From: Cetobacterium somerae
Lineage (GTDB): Bacteria > Fusobacteriota > Fusobacteriia > Fusobacteriales > Fusobacteriaceae
Length of the DNA stretch: 64,000 nt
Reading direction: 5' to 3'
Assembly: GCF_022430525.1 (NCBI RefSeq)
Contig: NZ_CP092519.1
Span: 1,428,454-1,492,453 of the forward strand
How positions within the stretch are numbered: the first letter of the stretch is position 1; each line of letters begins with the position of its first letter. Under the pieces are notes generated by a model. It saw only the letters and a list, made by a program, of their open reading frames with translations, was not told where the DNA came from and ran no database searches. Position numbers and translations under genes: made by a program. Below are positions 22,018-41,788 of the stretch, piece by piece.

Positions 22018-22641
22018 TTATTTTCCCCAAGTATCAGGAGTTTTATTCCACTTTAAAGCTATTTCAGCTTCTTCTGAATCTATATAGTTCTCCTCTGTTG
22101 CAACATTAATTAATGAAGCGAAGTTTGAAAGTGTAACCCAAGGAATATGGTCTTGTTCAAAATTCTTATATGCTTTTTCAAACTCATATGAGAATATTGC
22201 TAATACTTCAACATCAATAGCTCCTGCTTCTCTTGCAGCTGCTACAGCCTTTATCGAGCTTCCTCCTGTTGATATTAAGTCTTCTATTATTATTACTTTT
22301 TTCCCTTCAAATTCAGCTCCTTCAATTTGTCTTCCTGCACCATGAGCCTTCTTTTCTCCTCTAATATAAGCCATTGGTACATTCATCTCTTGAGCTATAA
22401 ATGCTGCCCATGGAATTCCTGCTGTTGCTGTTCCTGCTACAATATCAAAGTCTTTTTCTTTTAAAACTTCTATAAAAGCATCTACTACAACTTGTCTCTC
22501 TTTAGGGAATCCTATCATTTTTCTATTGTCACAATAGATTGGACTTTTTATTCCTGATACAAAAGTAAATGGATCCTTTACACTCAATCTAACTGCCTCT
22601 GTTCCTAATAATGATTTTGCTATATTTTTTTCTCTAGACAT
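22018..22641 (-). CDS. pyrE: Orotate phosphoribosyltransferase
   Basis: It converts orotate and PRPP to OMP, the fifth step of UMP synthesis. The 207-residue protein has the PRPP-binding loop VIIIEDLISTGGSSIKA (about residues 116-132) and the flexible-loop region YIRGEKKAHGAGRQIEG. The ATG overlaps the end of pyrC by 8 bases, indicating coupled translation. It is the last gene of pyrBKDFCE and is followed by an intrinsic terminator. Confidence 0.96.
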   Translation of the reverse strand: MSREKNIAKSLLGTEAVRLSVKDPFTFVSGIKSPIYCDNRKMIGFPKERQVVVDAFIEVLKEKDFDIVAGTATAGIPWAAFIAQEMNVPMAYIRGEKKAHGAGRQIEGAEFEGKKVIIIEDLISTGGSSIKAVAAAREAGAIDVEVLAIFSYEFEKAYKNFEQDHIPWVTLSNFASLINVATEENYIDSEEAEIALKWNKTPDTWGK

Positions 22642-23839
22642 TTTTATAATTCACTCCTTCTCCAATTTTTTCTATAAAATTTTTACCATCATAAACAATA
22701 TGACCTCTTACCATAGTTAATAGTACTTTTCCCCCTCCTACTATCCCACTATAAGGTGTCCATCCACATTTTGAGATTACATCTTCATTTTTTATAATCT
22801 CTTTATTATTTAAATCTACTACAACTAAATCTGCATCATACCCAACTTCTATCTTTCCTTTTCCAGCAATCCCAAATATTTTAGCTGGATTTTCTGACAT
22901 AACTTTCTGTAAAGTTTTCATGTCTATTTTTTTATTTAATTCTTTTAACATCATCTCTAAAGAATTCTCCACCCCTGGTATTCCATATGTTGTTTTAGAA
23001 TTTTTTTCCTCTAAAGTATGTGGTGCATGATCAGTTCCTATTGTATCAATAGTCCCATCCTCTATTCCTAACCAAAGAGCATCATTATCCTCTTTGCTTT
23101 TTAGCTCTGGTTTCATTATAAGTAATGAGTTTGCCATACTTGAATCTAAAAATAAGTGGTGTGGTGCTACTTCTCCATATATTTTTAATCCCTCTTTTTT
23201 TGCAGCTCTTAACTTTTCTACCTCACTCTTTTTAGAAAGATGACATAAATATAGTGGTTTTCTAAATTTTCTAGCTAAATCTATAGCTTTATCTACCATC
23301 TCTTCCTCTGCATGAACTGATATTATTTTAGATTCTTTAAATAAATTTTCTAAAACTTTCTCCTCTTCAACTAACATATCACCTGTTGACATATTCAGAA
23401 ATATTTTAGTTGAAGCTACTCTATCTCTTACCTTTTTTATCTCTTCACTATTATCTAATTTACTTCCCCCAAAGTGAAATCCATAATCTACATAACTTCT
23501 ATTTTTAGAATTGCTCTCTTTAGCATCTAAAATCTCTTTTGTTGTTGTATTTGGAACTGTGTTTGGCATATCTATAAATGTTGTTACTCCACCCTTAGCA
23601 CATGCTTTACTTCCTGTTTCAAAATCCTCTTTATAAGATAATCCTGGATCTCTCATATGAGTATGCACATCTATTACTCCAGGTAAAACCCAGTTTCCAT
23701 CCATATCTACAATTTCATCTATGTCTAACTCTTCTACTTCTGAGCATCTATATATTTTAACAATCTTTCCTTTTTCTACTAAAATATCCTTTATATCTTC
23801 TTCTCCATGATATAAAACTCTACAGTTTTTTAGCAACAT
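22634..23839 (-). CDS. pyrC: Dihydroorotase
   Basis: A zinc amidohydrolase that cyclises carbamoyl aspartate to dihydroorotate. The 401 residues match the class I (Bacillus-type) enzyme rather than the shorter E. coli type. DVHTHMRDPG (about residues 58-67) supplies the first metal ligands and substrate Arg; SVHAEEEM and HLSKKSEV contain further metal-binding His residues, and GTDHAPHT (about 268-275) has the catalytic Asp. It overlaps pyrF by 10 bases and pyrE by 8 bases in the operon. Confidence 0.95.
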   Translation of the reverse strand: MLLKNCRVLYHGEEDIKDILVEKGKIVKIYRCSEVEELDIDEIVDMDGNWVLPGVIDVHTHMRDPGLSYKEDFETGSKACAKGGVTTFIDMPNTVPNTTTKEILDAKESNSKNRSYVDYGFHFGGSKLDNSEEIKKVRDRVASTKIFLNMSTGDMLVEEEKVLENLFKESKIISVHAEEEMVDKAIDLARKFRKPLYLCHLSKKSEVEKLRAAKKEGLKIYGEVAPHHLFLDSSMANSLLIMKPELKSKEDNDALWLGIEDGTIDTIGTDHAPHTLEEKNSKTTYGIPGVENSLEMMLKELNKKIDMKTLQKVMSENPAKIFGIAGKGKIEVGYDADLVVVDLNNKEIIKNEDVISKCGWTPYSGIVGGGKVLLTMVRGHIVYDGKNFIEKIGEGVNYKNV

Positions 23840-24558
23840 AGACTTCCCTCTTTTACTCCCTCCTCTATTTCAGCTAATACTTTTTTAGCTGCTTCTACAG
23901 GATTCTCATTTTTAGTTACTGGTCTTCCTACAACTAGATAATCACATCCATTTAGTATTGCATCTTTAGGAGTCATTATTCTCTCTTGATCATTAGCAAC
24001 TGACCATTTAGGTCTTACTCCAGGACATACTGTTTTAAAGTTTTCTCCACATAGTTCTTTAATAGCTTTTGCTTCCCACGGCGAACATACAATTCCATCC
24101 ATTCCAGCTTCTTTTGTTAATTTAGCTAAATTTAAAGCTAACTCTTTTAATGTTAATTCACTTTTAAAAGTCTCTTTTAATCCCTCTTCTGAAAAACTTG
24201 TTAAAATTGTTACAGCAATTGATAGTATTTCCGGATTTACCTCTTTTACTCTTTTTGCAACTGATTCCATCATAGCTCTTCCACCACTTGCATGCACATT
24301 AAACATAAATACATCTTGTTTAGCTGCAAATAATGATGCCATTGTTGTTGTATTTGGAATATCATGGAATTTTAAATCTAAAAATACTTTTTTACCTTTT
24401 TGAGTAAGATATTCTACCATCTCTCCCTTTGAGTTTAAAAATAGCTCTAATCCCACTTTATAAAAAGAAACTGTTTCTCCTAAAATTTCAACTATATTCT
24501 TAGCATCCTCCATATTTGAATAATCCAATGCTATTATTAATCTATCTTTAATATTCAT
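23830..24558 (-). CDS. pyrF: Orotidine 5'-phosphate decarboxylase
   Basis: It decarboxylates OMP to UMP, the last step of the pathway. The 242-residue TIM barrel begins with LIIALDYSN and carries the catalytic charged network FLDLKFHDIPNTT (Asp-Lys-Asp, about residues 59-71). PGVRPKW and the phosphate-gripping VVGRPVT follow near the C-terminus. A GGAGG SD lies before ATG. It is followed by overlapping pyrC. Confidence 0.95.
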   Translation of the reverse strand: MNIKDRLIIALDYSNMEDAKNIVEILGETVSFYKVGLELFLNSKGEMVEYLTQKGKKVFLDLKFHDIPNTTTMASLFAAKQDVFMFNVHASGGRAMMESVAKRVKEVNPEILSIAVTILTSFSEEGLKETFKSELTLKELALNLAKLTKEAGMDGIVCSPWEAKAIKELCGENFKTVCPGVRPKWSVANDQERIMTPKDAILNGCDYLVVGRPVTKNENPVEAAKKVLAEIEEGVKEGSLCC

Positions 24559-24581
24559 TTTTCCTCCGTTATTTTTATCTA

Positions 24582-25499
24582 TTAGTTGTGTGCTGCTCCT
24601 ACAATCTCTTGTATATTTTCTAATCCATTCTCTTCACAAAATTTTTCTAATCCATCTTTTATCTCAACTGGTAAAATTGGATTTGAGAATAATCCTGTTC
24701 CTAATGAAACCATTGTTGCTCCTGCCATCATAAATTCTATTGCATCCTCAGTAGAAGAAATTCCTCCCATTCCAACTATTGGTATATTTACATTTTTATA
24801 TACTTGATATACCATTCTTAAGGCTACTGGTTTTACTGCAGGTCCTGAGAACCCACCAAAAGTATTTCCTAATACAGGTTTCCTCTTTTTAATATCTATT
24901 GCCATTCCTAGTAAAGTATTTATTAAAGATACCGCATCTGCACCATTCTCTTCTACAACTTTTGCTATATGAACTATATCCGTTACATTAGGTGATAGCT
25001 TTACAATCAAAGGTTTTGTTGTTACTTCTCTAACAGCCTTTGTTACAGCTCCAGCTACTTCTGGCTTAGCACCAAATGCCATTCCTCCATCTTTTACATT
25101 TGGACATGATATATTTAATTCTATCATATCAACTTCTGGAATATTTTCTACTCTTTTAGCTATTTCAACATACTCCTCTATTACTTTTCCATTTATGTTA
25201 ACGATTATTGGAGACTCAATTCCTGATGATTTTATATTTTTTACAATTACATTTTCAAAGTAATCAATCCCTGGATTTTCAAGTCCAACACAGTTTAGCA
25301 TTCCTCCTGGAGTCTCTGCTATTCTAGTTCCATAGTTACCATCTCTAGGTTCCATTGTTATTCCTTTTACTACAATTCCTCCCAAAACATTTGGATCAAA
25401 ATAATCCTTATACTCTAATCCAAAACCAAAACATCCTGATGATGTTACCATTGGATTTTTAAATTCTTTTCCTAAAAAATTTGTTTTTAATCTATTCAT
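24582..25499 (-). CDS. pyrD: Dihydroorotate dehydrogenase B, catalytic subunit
   Basis: An FMN enzyme oxidising dihydroorotate to orotate, working with PyrK to pass electrons to NAD+. 305 residues; ATG 25499 is preferred since AAGGGAG lies 8 bases upstream, over a GTG at 25523 that overlaps pyrK. TSSGCFGFG, NCVGLENPG, the class 1 active-site segment ELNISCPNVKDGG (catalytic Cys, about residues 130-142) and GMGGISSTEDA are present. Type 1B is supported by the adjacent pyrK. Confidence 0.95.
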   Translation of the reverse strand: MNRLKTNFLGKEFKNPMVTSSGCFGFGLEYKDYFDPNVLGGIVVKGITMEPRDGNYGTRIAETPGGMLNCVGLENPGIDYFENVIVKNIKSSGIESPIIVNINGKVIEEYVEIAKRVENIPEVDMIELNISCPNVKDGGMAFGAKPEVAGAVTKAVREVTTKPLIVKLSPNVTDIVHIAKVVEENGADAVSLINTLLGMAIDIKKRKPVLGNTFGGFSGPAVKPVALRMVYQVYKNVNIPIVGMGGISSTEDAIEFMMAGATMVSLGTGLFSNPILPVEIKDGLEKFCEENGLENIQEIVGAAHN

Positions 25500-25512
25500 C
25501 TTTTCCACTCCC

Positions 25513-26316
25513 TTAGTTTCCACAGCTACACCCTGTATTTTCTTTAGGATTTACATCCACTATTATTTTTGAATCAAAAACCGGTCCATCATGACAAACT
25601 TTTTTCATCCCATCTAATGTTTTTATTGAACATCCAACACATGCTTTAACTCCACATGCCATTCTTTCTTCTAAAGATACTTCACAAAACACATCTGCTT
25701 TTAGCGTTGTTTCTGCTACTGCTTCCATCATTTTATGAGGTCCACAAGTTTGAACCATATCTATCTTTTCATCAGATAAAACTCTACTTAAAACAGATAT
25801 TACATTTCCTTTTTCTCCTAAAGAACCATCATCTGTTGTTATATATGTTTTTATTCCATCTAAATTTAAATTTTCTAATATATTTAAAGCTTCTTTCCCT
25901 CTTCCGCCAGCTATAAATATAACTTCATTTTCTTTTTTTAACTCATCTATTAGTAGCTTTGTTGGAGCGATTCCCATTCCTCCACCAACAACAACACACT
26001 TTTTATTTTTTACTTCTGTTGTAAATCCTCTTCCTAAAGGTCCTTGAATATTTAAAATTTCTCCAACTTCAAGTGTAGCAAACTCCTTTGTCCCTCCACC
26101 TTTTACTTCATAATAAAACTCTAAAATATTTTTATCTTTATCTACATAATGAAGACTGATTGGTCTTCTTAAAATTCTTATTTCATTTTTTAATTTTAAC
26201 ATAAAAAACTGCCCAGCTTTTGAATATTGAGAAGCCTTCTCAGATTCTATTTTCATTAAGTAGTAGTCTTCTCCAACTTTATAATTTTCTAATACTTTAC
26301 AATCCTCTAAAAACAT
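25513..26316 (-). CDS. pyrK: Dihydroorotate dehydrogenase B, electron transfer subunit
   Basis: 267 residues. It holds FAD and a [2Fe-2S] cluster and moves electrons from PyrD to NAD+. The FAD-binding LRRPISLHYV (about residues 53-62), NAD-binding GGGMGIAPTKLL (about 112-123), and the cluster ligands CEVSLEERMACGVKACVGC with a later CHDGPVF are all visible. It sits between pyrB and pyrD, as expected for a 1B-type system. Confidence 0.95.
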   Translation of the reverse strand: MFLEDCKVLENYKVGEDYYLMKIESEKASQYSKAGQFFMLKLKNEIRILRRPISLHYVDKDKNILEFYYEVKGGGTKEFATLEVGEILNIQGPLGRGFTTEVKNKKCVVVGGGMGIAPTKLLIDELKKENEVIFIAGGRGKEALNILENLNLDGIKTYITTDDGSLGEKGNVISVLSRVLSDEKIDMVQTCGPHKMMEAVAETTLKADVFCEVSLEERMACGVKACVGCSIKTLDGMKKVCHDGPVFDSKIIVDVNPKENTGCSCGN

Positions 26317-26346: not shown

Positions 26347-27411
26347 TTATTTTTTTATATCTCTATTACAGTAATAACAATATTCATGTTCTTTATCTAA
26401 AACATATTTGTTTTCTGTTTCCTCAAACTTTGTGATACATTTTTCATTACTACAAATAATTTCAGTTGATTTTCTAATATCTTTTTCTAGCCTCTCATAC
26501 TTTAATGTTTCTATTAATCCTAAAGCTATTGAAAAAATCGCTTCTCTTGTTGGAACTCCATTTGCTGCTTGCTCAAAATATTTAGCGTGTTTTGTTTCAT
26601 CCAAATCTATTTTTATTTCATCTACTCTAGGCAACGGATGTAAAATTATCATATCTTCTTTACATTTACCTACAATACTTTCTTTATCTATAATATAAAC
26701 TCCAGCTACTTTTTCATAATCTTCTTGATTATCAAATCTTTCCTTTTGAATTCTTGTCATATATAATACATCTATCTCTTTTAATACATCTTTATAATCA
26801 TTTAATATATGATATTTTATATTTTTTTTCTCAAGCTCTCTTGCAATATACTCTGGTATTTGGATTACTTCTGGTGCTATAAAGTAAAACTCACAGTTGA
26901 ACATCTCTAATGCTTTTGTTAATGAATGAACTGTTCTTCCATATTTTAAATCCCCTACAAAAGCCACCTTTTTTCCTTCTATACTTCCAAATTCTTTTTC
27001 AATTGTATATAGATCTAAAAGGGTTTGGCTTGGATGCTCATTAGCTCCATCCCCTGCATTTATTACTGGCACTTTTGCTATATCTGCTGCAAAACGAGCC
27101 GCTCCATCTCTATTATGTCTCATAACAATTACATCCGAATAAGCTTCTGTCATCTTTATCGTATCTCTTAACGATTCCCCTTTTTTTAAAGAAGTAGCAT
27201 CTGGTGAATCAAATCCTAAAACTTTAGCTCCTAATCTATAAGCAGCTGATGTGAATGATAACCTTGTTCTTGTTGAAGGTTCGAAAAATAAGCTTCCAAC
27301 TATTTTATTTTTCAAAAGTTCTTCATTTTTTTTCTCTAACTCTTTTGCTACTCTTAAAACCTCTAAAATATCACCTTTTGTAAAATCTTTCATTGAAATA
27401 AAATCTCTCAT
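26347..27411 (-). CDS. pyrB: Aspartate carbamoyltransferase catalytic chain with a C-terminal PyrI-like zinc tail
   Basis: It makes carbamoyl aspartate from carbamoyl phosphate and aspartate. Residues 1 to about 305 are close in pattern to E. coli PyrB: FFEPSTRTRLSF (carbamoyl-phosphate loop), VMRHNRDGAAR, GANEHPSQTLLDL, VGDLKYGRTVHSL and HPLPRVDEI. A further tail of about 45 residues holds Cys320-x4-Cys325-x19-Cys345-x2-Cys348, the pattern of the PyrI zinc domain (C-x4-C-x~23-C-x2-C). No PyrI allosteric domain and no separate pyrI gene are present in the window. First gene of pyrBKDFCE, behind a translated-leader attenuator. Confidence 0.95.
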   Translation of the reverse strand: MRDFISMKDFTKGDILEVLRVAKELEKKNEELLKNKIVGSLFFEPSTRTRLSFTSAAYRLGAKVLGFDSPDATSLKKGESLRDTIKMTEAYSDVIVMRHNRDGAARFAADIAKVPVINAGDGANEHPSQTLLDLYTIEKEFGSIEGKKVAFVGDLKYGRTVHSLTKALEMFNCEFYFIAPEVIQIPEYIARELEKKNIKYHILNDYKDVLKEIDVLYMTRIQKERFDNQEDYEKVAGVYIIDKESIVGKCKEDMIILHPLPRVDEIKIDLDETKHAKYFEQAANGVPTREAIFSIALGLIETLKYERLEKDIRKSTEIICSNEKCITKFEETENKYVLDKEHEYCYYCNRDIKK

Positions 27412-27435: not shown

Positions 27436-27480
27436 AAAAAAAAAGGAATAGAAATTACAAATTAATGTAACTTCTATTCC
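27436..27480 (-). terminator. pyrB attenuator (intrinsic terminator inside the leader gene)
   Basis: On the - strand GGAATAGAAGTTAC pairs with GTAATTTCTATTCC (14 bp, one G-U) across an 8-base loop, followed by nine Ts. The leader reading frame covers the whole 5' arm and loop and stops at the first bases of the 3' arm. pyrB starts 25 bases beyond the T run. Confidence 0.93.
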
Positions 27481-27577
27481 ATATATTAAAATCAAAATTA
27501 AAAGATAAAAATAATGAAAATAGTATTTTTTTCTTTTTTTCTTTTTTTAATCCAAAAATACTTAACAACTTTTTCAC
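27455..27577 (-). CDS. pyrB leader peptide (PyrL-like, 40 residues)
   Basis: A short reading frame with GTG start at 27577 preceded by GGGAGGA at an 8-base distance. The peptide begins with V/M-KKLLSIFGL, then a Lys-rich run (KKEKKKK, residues 11-17), then a Phe/Leu/Asn/Ser stretch encoded almost wholly by U-rich codons, and ends NRSYINL with TAA in the attenuator hairpin. The layout equals that of the E. coli pyrBI leader: U-rich transcript where low UTP would pause RNA polymerase, and a ribosome that must be close behind to block hairpin formation. The function is inferred; the frame, SD and hairpin are directly visible. Confidence 0.85.
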   Translation of the reverse strand: MKKLLSIFGLKKEKKKKILFSLFLSFNFDFNIWNRSYINL

Positions 27578-27611
27578 TTTTTATCCTCCCTGCTTTTTTT
27601 ACGCTTTGAAA

Positions 27612-27640
27612 AGTATATCATACCTTTTTAAATTTGTAAA
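27612..27640 (-). promoter_or_regulatory. Promoter of the pyrBKDFCE operon
   Basis: On the - strand: TTTACA (27640-27635), 17-base spacer, TATACT (27617-27612). The -35 overlaps the last codons of the upstream cysteine desulfurase gene. Confidence 0.85.
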
Positions 27641-40482: not shown

Positions 40483-41535
40483 TTATCCCTCTATTACTTT
40501 TAAAAAATCATCAAACAGATATTCTGAATCAGCTGGTCCTGGCCATGCTTCTGGGTGATACTGTACACATAAAATTCTATGCTCTTCACTTCTCATTCCT
40601 TCAATAGAGTTATCATTTAAATTTATATGTGTTACTTTCATTGATTCAGGCACTTTATCTACAACGTAACCATGATTTTGTGATGTTATAAATATTCTAT
40701 TTTTTTCTAAATCTTTAACTGGATGATTACACCCTCTATGTCCATACTTTAACTTTGTTGTTGTTCCACCTAAAGCCCAAGCTAATAACTGATGTCCTAA
40801 ACATATTCCAACAATAGGTAATTTTCCAACTAATTTTTTTATTTCGTTTATTACTCCAGTTAACTCTGCTGGATCTCCTGGTCCATTTGATAAAAACACT
40901 GCATCTAAATCATGTGATAATAACTCTTCTGCAGTTACATTCCAAGGAAATACAATTTGATGAACTCCTCTTTTTTCAAATGATCTTAATATATTTCTTT
41001 TAACACCGAAATCTATCACTCCTATTCTTTTTCCAGGTCCAGGAATTTCATAAATCTCTTTTGTGCTAACTTTTTCTACAGCATCACTATTATTAAATTT
41101 TGCAAAATGCTCATCTATCTCTTTTTGAGTTAAATCTTTTGAAGTTATTAGAGCTTTCATCGCTCCTTCTTCTCTTATTATTTTAGTTAAATGTCTTGTA
41201 TCTACACCTTTAAATCCAACTACATTATATTGTCTTAAAAATCCATCTAATGTCATTTCACATCTAAAGTTATTTGGAAGCTTTGCGTCCTCTTTAATTA
41301 TAAATCCTTTTAACTTTATTCCGCTAGATTCCATATCCTCTAAGTTTATTCCATAGTTTCCAACCATTGGATAAGTCATAACAACAATTTGACCATAATA
41401 TGATGGATCCGTAAGTAACTCTTGGTACCCTGTCATTCCTGTATTAAATACAAGCTCTCCAACGCTTTCACCTAATTCTCCAAAAATTTTTCCATCAAAA
41501 CTCATTCCGTTTTCAAGAATTAACTTCCCCTTCAT
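40483..41535 (-). CDS. carA: Carbamoyl-phosphate synthase small subunit (glutaminase)
   Basis: It hydrolyses glutamine and channels ammonia to CarB. The 350-residue protein has the N-terminal CPSase small-chain domain (GYQELLTDPSYYGQIVVMTY) and a C-terminal class I amidotransferase triad: Cys in GICLGHQLLAWALGG (about residues 241-255), His and Glu in VQYHPEAWPGP. Its SD, AGGAGG, overlaps the stop codon (TAG) of the leader gene, so leader termination and carA initiation may be linked. Expression probably serves both pyrimidines and arginine. Confidence 0.96.
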   Translation of the reverse strand: MKGKLILENGMSFDGKIFGELGESVGELVFNTGMTGYQELLTDPSYYGQIVVMTYPMVGNYGINLEDMESSGIKLKGFIIKEDAKLPNNFRCEMTLDGFLRQYNVVGFKGVDTRHLTKIIREEGAMKALITSKDLTQKEIDEHFAKFNNSDAVEKVSTKEIYEIPGPGKRIGVIDFGVKRNILRSFEKRGVHQIVFPWNVTAEELLSHDLDAVFLSNGPGDPAELTGVINEIKKLVGKLPIVGICLGHQLLAWALGGTTTKLKYGHRGCNHPVKDLEKNRIFITSQNHGYVVDKVPESMKVTHINLNDNSIEGMRSEEHRILCVQYHPEAWPGPADSEYLFDDFLKVIEG

Positions 41536-41544
41536 CTAAACCTC

Positions 41545-41727
41545 CTAAATTTTTTGCATAAAAAAAGGAATATGAAAATCATATTCCTTGTCTATATAAA
41601 TATTAAAATTAAAAACTAATAAATTTAAAAACATAAATAAATTATTAATAAATGAAATAAATAAATTTAAAAACGACAAATAGTTTTTCTTTTTTTTCTT
41701 AATTTTTGTGCCATTTTTAAAAAACAT
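41545..41727 (-). CDS. carA leader peptide (PyrL-like, 60 residues)
   Basis: An ATG at 41727 follows AAGGAGG by 8 bases. The 60-codon frame shows the pattern seen before pyrB: a short start, a Lys-rich stretch (residues 8-14, KIKKKKK), then a long Phe/Leu/Asn/Ile tract encoded by U-rich codons. It reads straight through the attenuator hairpin (codons 47-54) and its T run, ending at TAG only 9 bases before the carA ATG. The peptide itself has no recognisable domain and is unlikely to matter; what counts is ribosome position. It was not translated by shadowing of any other gene. Confidence 0.82.
   Translation of the reverse strand: MFFKNGTKIKKKKKNYLSFLNLFISFINNLFMFLNLLVFNFNIYIDKEYDFHIPFFMQKI
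41559..41588 (-). terminator. carA attenuator (intrinsic terminator inside the leader gene)
   Basis: On the - strand AGGAATATGA pairs with TCATATTCCT (10 bp) across a 3-base loop, followed by seven Ts. The leader frame is open across the whole structure. Confidence 0.88.
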
Positions 41728-41759
41728 ATTCCATCCTCCTTTTTTTTGCTCTGAGAAAG

Positions 41760-41788
41760 AGTATATACTAATTTTAAAAAGTTGTCAA
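41760..41788 (-). promoter_or_regulatory. Promoter of the carAB unit
   Basis: On the - strand: TTGACA (41788-41783), 17-base spacer, TATACT (41765-41760), a near-consensus match. Confidence 0.88.

Follow-up and report, generated by a model that had tools for sequence, protein, structure and literature searches.

Leader genes that overlap intrinsic terminators ahead of pyrB and carA in Cetobacterium somerae and other Fusobacteriales: a probable UTP-sensing attenuator

Leader regions of pyrB and carA in the window

The window, a stretch of 64,000 nucleotides (nt) of Cetobacterium somerae (contig NZ_CP092519.1, positions 1,428,454 to 1,492,453), carries the pyrimidine operon pyrBKDFCE on its minus strand. 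Upstream of pyrB lies a leader region (27640-27436) in which a short gene runs into an intrinsic terminator. Its promoter (27612-27640) comprises the -35 element TTTACA (27640-27635), a spacer of 17 nt and the -10 element TATACT (27617-27612). A Shine-Dalgarno (SD) sequence, GGGAGG (27585-27590), precedes the leader gene, which extends over 40 codons from GTG at 27577 to TAA at 27455. The final 60 nt ahead of the hairpin (27481-27540) contain 48% U and form a putative pause tract sensitive to uridine triphosphate (UTP). The hairpin (27445-27480) has 15 pairs, G-U pairs counted, a loop of 6 nt and a folding energy of -18.7 kcal/mol, and is followed by a termination tract of nine T (27436-27444). 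Its 5' arm and loop consist entirely of leader codons. The leader stop lies in the 3' arm, ending at position 26 of the 36 hairpin positions. The original prediction, made from the sequence of the window alone, had thus placed the promoter, the SD sequence, the 40-codon gene and its overlap with the terminator correctly. Folding of the leader was stronger than expected by chance (z = -4.35). By itself, the promoter is weak evidence, as eight such matches were found in 2 kb against 10.8 expected (p ~0.025 for the pyrB leader). Its placing was kept in relatives, with a mean best score of 10.2 out of 12 compared to 7.7 in shuffles. The terminator pattern occurred once more in the genome, but no hairpin of the same kind was present there.

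A second copy was located on the same strand ahead of carA; the original prediction had found the pyrB leader and overlooked this one. It starts with the promoter TTGACA-17-TATACT (41760-41788) and the SD sequence AGGAGG (41735-41740). The leader gene of 60 codons (41545-41727) traverses the terminator and has its stop codon at the ribosome-binding site of carA. The attenuator hairpin (AAGGAATATGATTTTCATATTCCTT, 41565-41589) is followed by a T run, and carA occupies 40489-41535, with the final base of its family match taken as an approximate 3' end. The open reading frame (ORF) of the carA leader is Lys-rich at its start, and its second half is rich in U. Both leaders share the same anatomy, and their peptides are without meaningful similarity. 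Two dissimilar leader copies were present, one on each operon carrying genes for de novo synthesis of uridine monophosphate.

The operon pyrBKDFCE had been proposed from the letters, and NCBIfam models matched all six genes: pyrB (26347-27411), the first gene of the operon, and pyrK, pyrD, pyrF, pyrC and pyrE (22018-26316), all on the minus strand. The score of pyrK was slightly below the nearest curated cut-off, and pyrC and pyrE passed general models. As read from the sequence, the catalytic chain of PyrB is fused at its C-terminus to a CX4C...CX2C segment that resembles the PyrI zinc domain. The nucleotide-binding domain of PyrI is apparently absent, and Pfam gave no PyrI match.

Conservation and spread of the leader frame

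Ninety-six genomes of the order Fusobacteriales were examined. Of these, 92 had pyrB and every one had a carA-like gene, which was above the carA cut-off in 76. The regions upstream of 45 pyrB and 45 carA genes were scored automatically by selecting the best hairpin before a T run and then, irrespective of its end point, the ORF preceded by the best SD sequence. Hairpin and ORF were both present in 79 regions, and in 76 of these (38 pyrB and 38 carA, spanning nine genera) the ORF ended at, in or beyond the hairpin. Three regions were exceptions. In L025, the next ATG opens an ORF of 40 codons ending in the hairpin; the hairpins of L138 and L144 are of insufficient strength for terminators. The 76 leader stops were located at the hairpin base (11), in the 5' arm or loop (30), in the 3' arm (24) or beyond the hairpin (11). 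In 75 of the 76, a ribosome positioned at the stop codon would mask 9 nt or more of the 5' arm. Another 17 leaders, with start codons picked by eye and including genera with a joint carA-pyrB operon, added genera g7, g9 and g14 and three genera of a second family. Altogether, the arrangement was found in 93 leaders from 15 of 27 genera in two families. No such leader was found ahead of the genes examined in g3, g12, g21 and some other genera of the second family. Three genomes (G024, G025 and G036) carry two carA genes, each with its own leader of this kind (L127, L128, L100, L141, L124, L135).

The leader frame was open to the hairpin in all 76 scored leaders, whereas the two other frames were open in 0 and 3. 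In controls with the start and the hairpin fixed and the remainder dinucleotide-shuffled, the chance of the frame staying open to the hairpin was on average 0.046 per leader. Combined over 17 genus-by-gene groups, the probability was approximately 1e-25, which is an order of magnitude only, the genera being not fully independent. A 464-kb sample of the C. somerae genome contained 237 terminators. Five overlapped an SD-led ORF of 20 to 70 codons, among them the two leaders ahead of pyrB and carA. U content was ordinary in the remaining three, two of which look like ends of longer frames. Since the frame was kept far above shuffles and the overlap was rare among background terminators, a chance ORF is unlikely. 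The peptide and the hairpin sequence varied across genera and the overlap was kept, which is the opposite of the frame loss under a retained hairpin that the original prediction had named as speaking against it. Insertions and deletions were counted in aligned relatives. Within the leader frame, they came in multiples of three in 51 of 59 cases for pyrB of g1 and in 88 of 111 for carA of g4, compared to 5 of 27 and 28 of 86, respectively, between terminator and gene. The alignments of the most diverged sets (pyrB of g4 and carA of g5) were too poor to judge this periodicity.

In both leader sets, the U content increased towards the hairpin: it was 0.21-0.29 at a distance of 140 to 100 nt and reached 0.55-0.63 over the final 40 nt. 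The C content was low throughout, with approximately 0.06 near the hairpin, and the mean U content of coding sequence was 0.32. The codon UUU made up 24% of the last 18 leader codons, compared to 3.7% in the genes of the window. A nucleotide trait that is kept while the peptide varies points to the RNA, not the amino acids, as being under selection.

Inspection by eye of other pyrimidine genes of the C. somerae genome (pyrG, upp and NCS2 permease genes) did not reveal the device. No leader gene accompanies pyrG (L150), which does possess a promoter-like sequence of its own and the hairpin GGCGAAATTTTTTTTTTCGCC with a long T run; these may constitute another type of nucleotide-controlled attenuator. 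Purine riboswitches precede two of the NCS2 permease genes (L149:1286-1387 and L148:2920-3017). A scan of 78 pyrB loci from beyond Fusobacteriota yielded weak overlaps of leader frame and terminator in three (L182, L227 and L232); it missed most Vibrio and Photobacterium loci and says little on other phyla.

Proposed mechanism and alternative explanations

The leader ahead of pyrBKDFCE is probably a translation-coupled transcription attenuator of the E. coli pyrBI type that senses UTP, with a twin ahead of carA. Transcription would begin at the leader promoter, and a ribosome would load on the leader gene. With ample UTP, the polymerase would pass the U-rich tract quickly and leave the ribosome behind, the hairpin would form and transcription would terminate at the T run, ahead of the structural genes. 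With scarce UTP, the polymerase would pause in the U tract, allowing the ribosome to catch up. Approaching the stop codon, the ribosome would cover the 5' arm of the hairpin, and the polymerase would continue into the operon. UTP is the presumed signal because the tract is rich in U and the controlled pathway is that of pyrimidines. Several points weigh against this interpretation. Coupling of transcription and translation in fusobacteria is an assumption. In the pyrB leaders of g1, the tract is made up of runs of four to five U with interruptions. A requirement for hydrophobic or Phe, Ile and Leu codons might account for part of the U content, though the peptides are not conserved.

The amino acid composition bears on a related explanation, in which translation-coupled attenuation would sense an amino acid (Phe, Leu, Ile or Lys) via charged transfer RNA, or the general translation rate. 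The leaders are indeed rich in Phe (20%), Ile, Leu and Lys, but no control codon is consistently placed, the peptides are not conserved and the genes make pyrimidines. Stalling in the U-rich codons would hold the ribosome upstream of the hairpin, which could then form. In amino acid attenuators, ribosome stalling releases an antiterminator, but no signal for such a structure emerged over the leader set: pairing of the terminator 5' arm with the upstream leader did not exceed that in codon shuffles (mean rank 0.60 for pyrB and 0.40 for carA). Two pyrB leaders of g1, including that of the window, ranked high singly (1/40). Amino acid or translation rate sensing is considered improbable. Control by a riboswitch or a protein-bound attenuator of the PyrR type, with the short frame being incidental, is highly improbable. 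Attenuators of the PyrR type do regulate pyr operons in other organisms, and one genus of Fusobacteriales has them. PyrR was above the cut-off in 3 of the 96 genomes, all of g3 (G014-G016), and Rfam PyrR sites were found in loci L069 and L072. In C. somerae, however, the best PyrR score was 22.9 bits against a cut-off of 138, and the leader had no Rfam match, either at the gathering cut-off or at E values up to 10. This agrees with the original prediction, which had seen no PyrR-type binding loop. The terminator was the only conserved structure, and the frame was retained far above chance. It is as if PyrR control and leader control replace each other. The g3 loci L069, L071 and L072 carry a pyrB of a more distant kind.

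That the hairpin serves only as the terminator of the upstream gene, the leader frame being a chance ORF, can practically be dismissed. Such a layout resembles that of g12, where the hairpin lies directly past the upstream gene without a leader gene. In the window, a promoter and approximately 150 nt lie between the upstream gene and the pyrB hairpin, the upstream neighbours vary among genera, and both the frame statistics and the background terminator counts oppose it. In g12 (L028, L033 and L034), the hairpin and T run stand a few bases past the stop of an upstream gene ending in VVNPD and directly before pyrB. Another variant keeps the same attenuator and shifts control chiefly to leader initiation: the U tract would pair back on the SD sequence and start codon and block later ribosomes, and only a slow polymerase would admit one. 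Predicted pairing with the SD sequence and start was above local codon shuffles in the pyrB leaders (mean rank 0.25; 2/60 in the copy of the window). The carA leaders gave a weaker effect (mean rank 0.38), and none was seen in g6, g13 pyrB and g10. The A-rich and U-rich halves pair readily, and part of the signal may be composition. The effect was smaller under a stricter control and not general, and it is not claimed here; control chiefly at initiation appears very unlikely. A wider proposal combines both functions of the tract in an order-wide regulon based solely on a race between ribosome and polymerase and evolved separately from that of enterobacteria: the U-rich tract would pause the polymerase at low UTP and, after its transcription, also fold back on the leader ribosome-binding site, ending loading. 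It is regarded as speculative and rather unlikely. The UTP-sensing attenuator overlapped by a translated leader remains the preferred explanation.

Comparison with known attenuators

In E. coli, coupling of transcription and translation across pyrL prevents the terminator (PMC5021804). The pyrBI-pyrL leaders of E. coli and Salmonella resemble those described here in the SD-led leader gene overlapping an intrinsic terminator, the U-rich stretch before the hairpin and pyrB downstream, and, under the proposed mechanism, in termination being decided by where the ribosome stands. The order of parts is the same as in E. coli pyrL, and the carA leader, with its frame running through the terminator, has the pyrL layout. 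In contrast, most fusobacterial leaders stop within the hairpin, whereas pyrL stops beyond it, and the fusobacterial U-rich tract is longer. The leader peptide showed no local alignment to PyrL at E values up to 100. By reading, no run of three or more T for UTP slippage was present near the predicted transcription starts, AAAGCG for pyrB and AGAGC for carA. The original assignment to the E. coli pyrBI type accordingly stands as a mechanism class and does not extend to PyrL similarity or a slippage start.

E. coli carAB is governed by tandem promoters, repressors and UTP slippage (PMC6245113). Unlike E. coli with these other controls, fusobacterial carA has the same device as pyrB. In the E. 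coli rph-pyrE operon, translation of a full upstream gene ending next to the hairpin suppresses termination. A likeness to it was seen only in g12, and the translated frame in rph-pyrE is a full gene instead of a short leader. The PyrR attenuators (Rfam RF00515) likewise act by transcription attenuation of pyr operons; the PyrR gene and site were found in g3 only and are absent here. Attenuators of the trp and his type likewise combine a translated leader peptide with a terminator. The fusobacterial leaders differ from these in showing no antiterminator signal and no consistent control codon, and in having a frame that enters the terminator. No description of such leaders in Fusobacteriota was found in a search of the open-access literature.

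If the interpretation is true, UTP control by coupling of ribosome and polymerase is not an enterobacterial peculiarity and would be the usual pyrimidine control in much of another phylum, where the device would probably have arisen separately. It would also imply tight coupling of transcription and translation in Fusobacteriota, a trait that varies among bacteria and has seldom been tested beyond model species. The leaders would then offer a natural reporter for coupling, and a function could be assigned to many unannotated short genes. Read from their sequences, the fusobacterial leaders appear to belong to the same mechanism class as E. coli pyrBI, without sequence similarity to it, in another phylum and on two operons.
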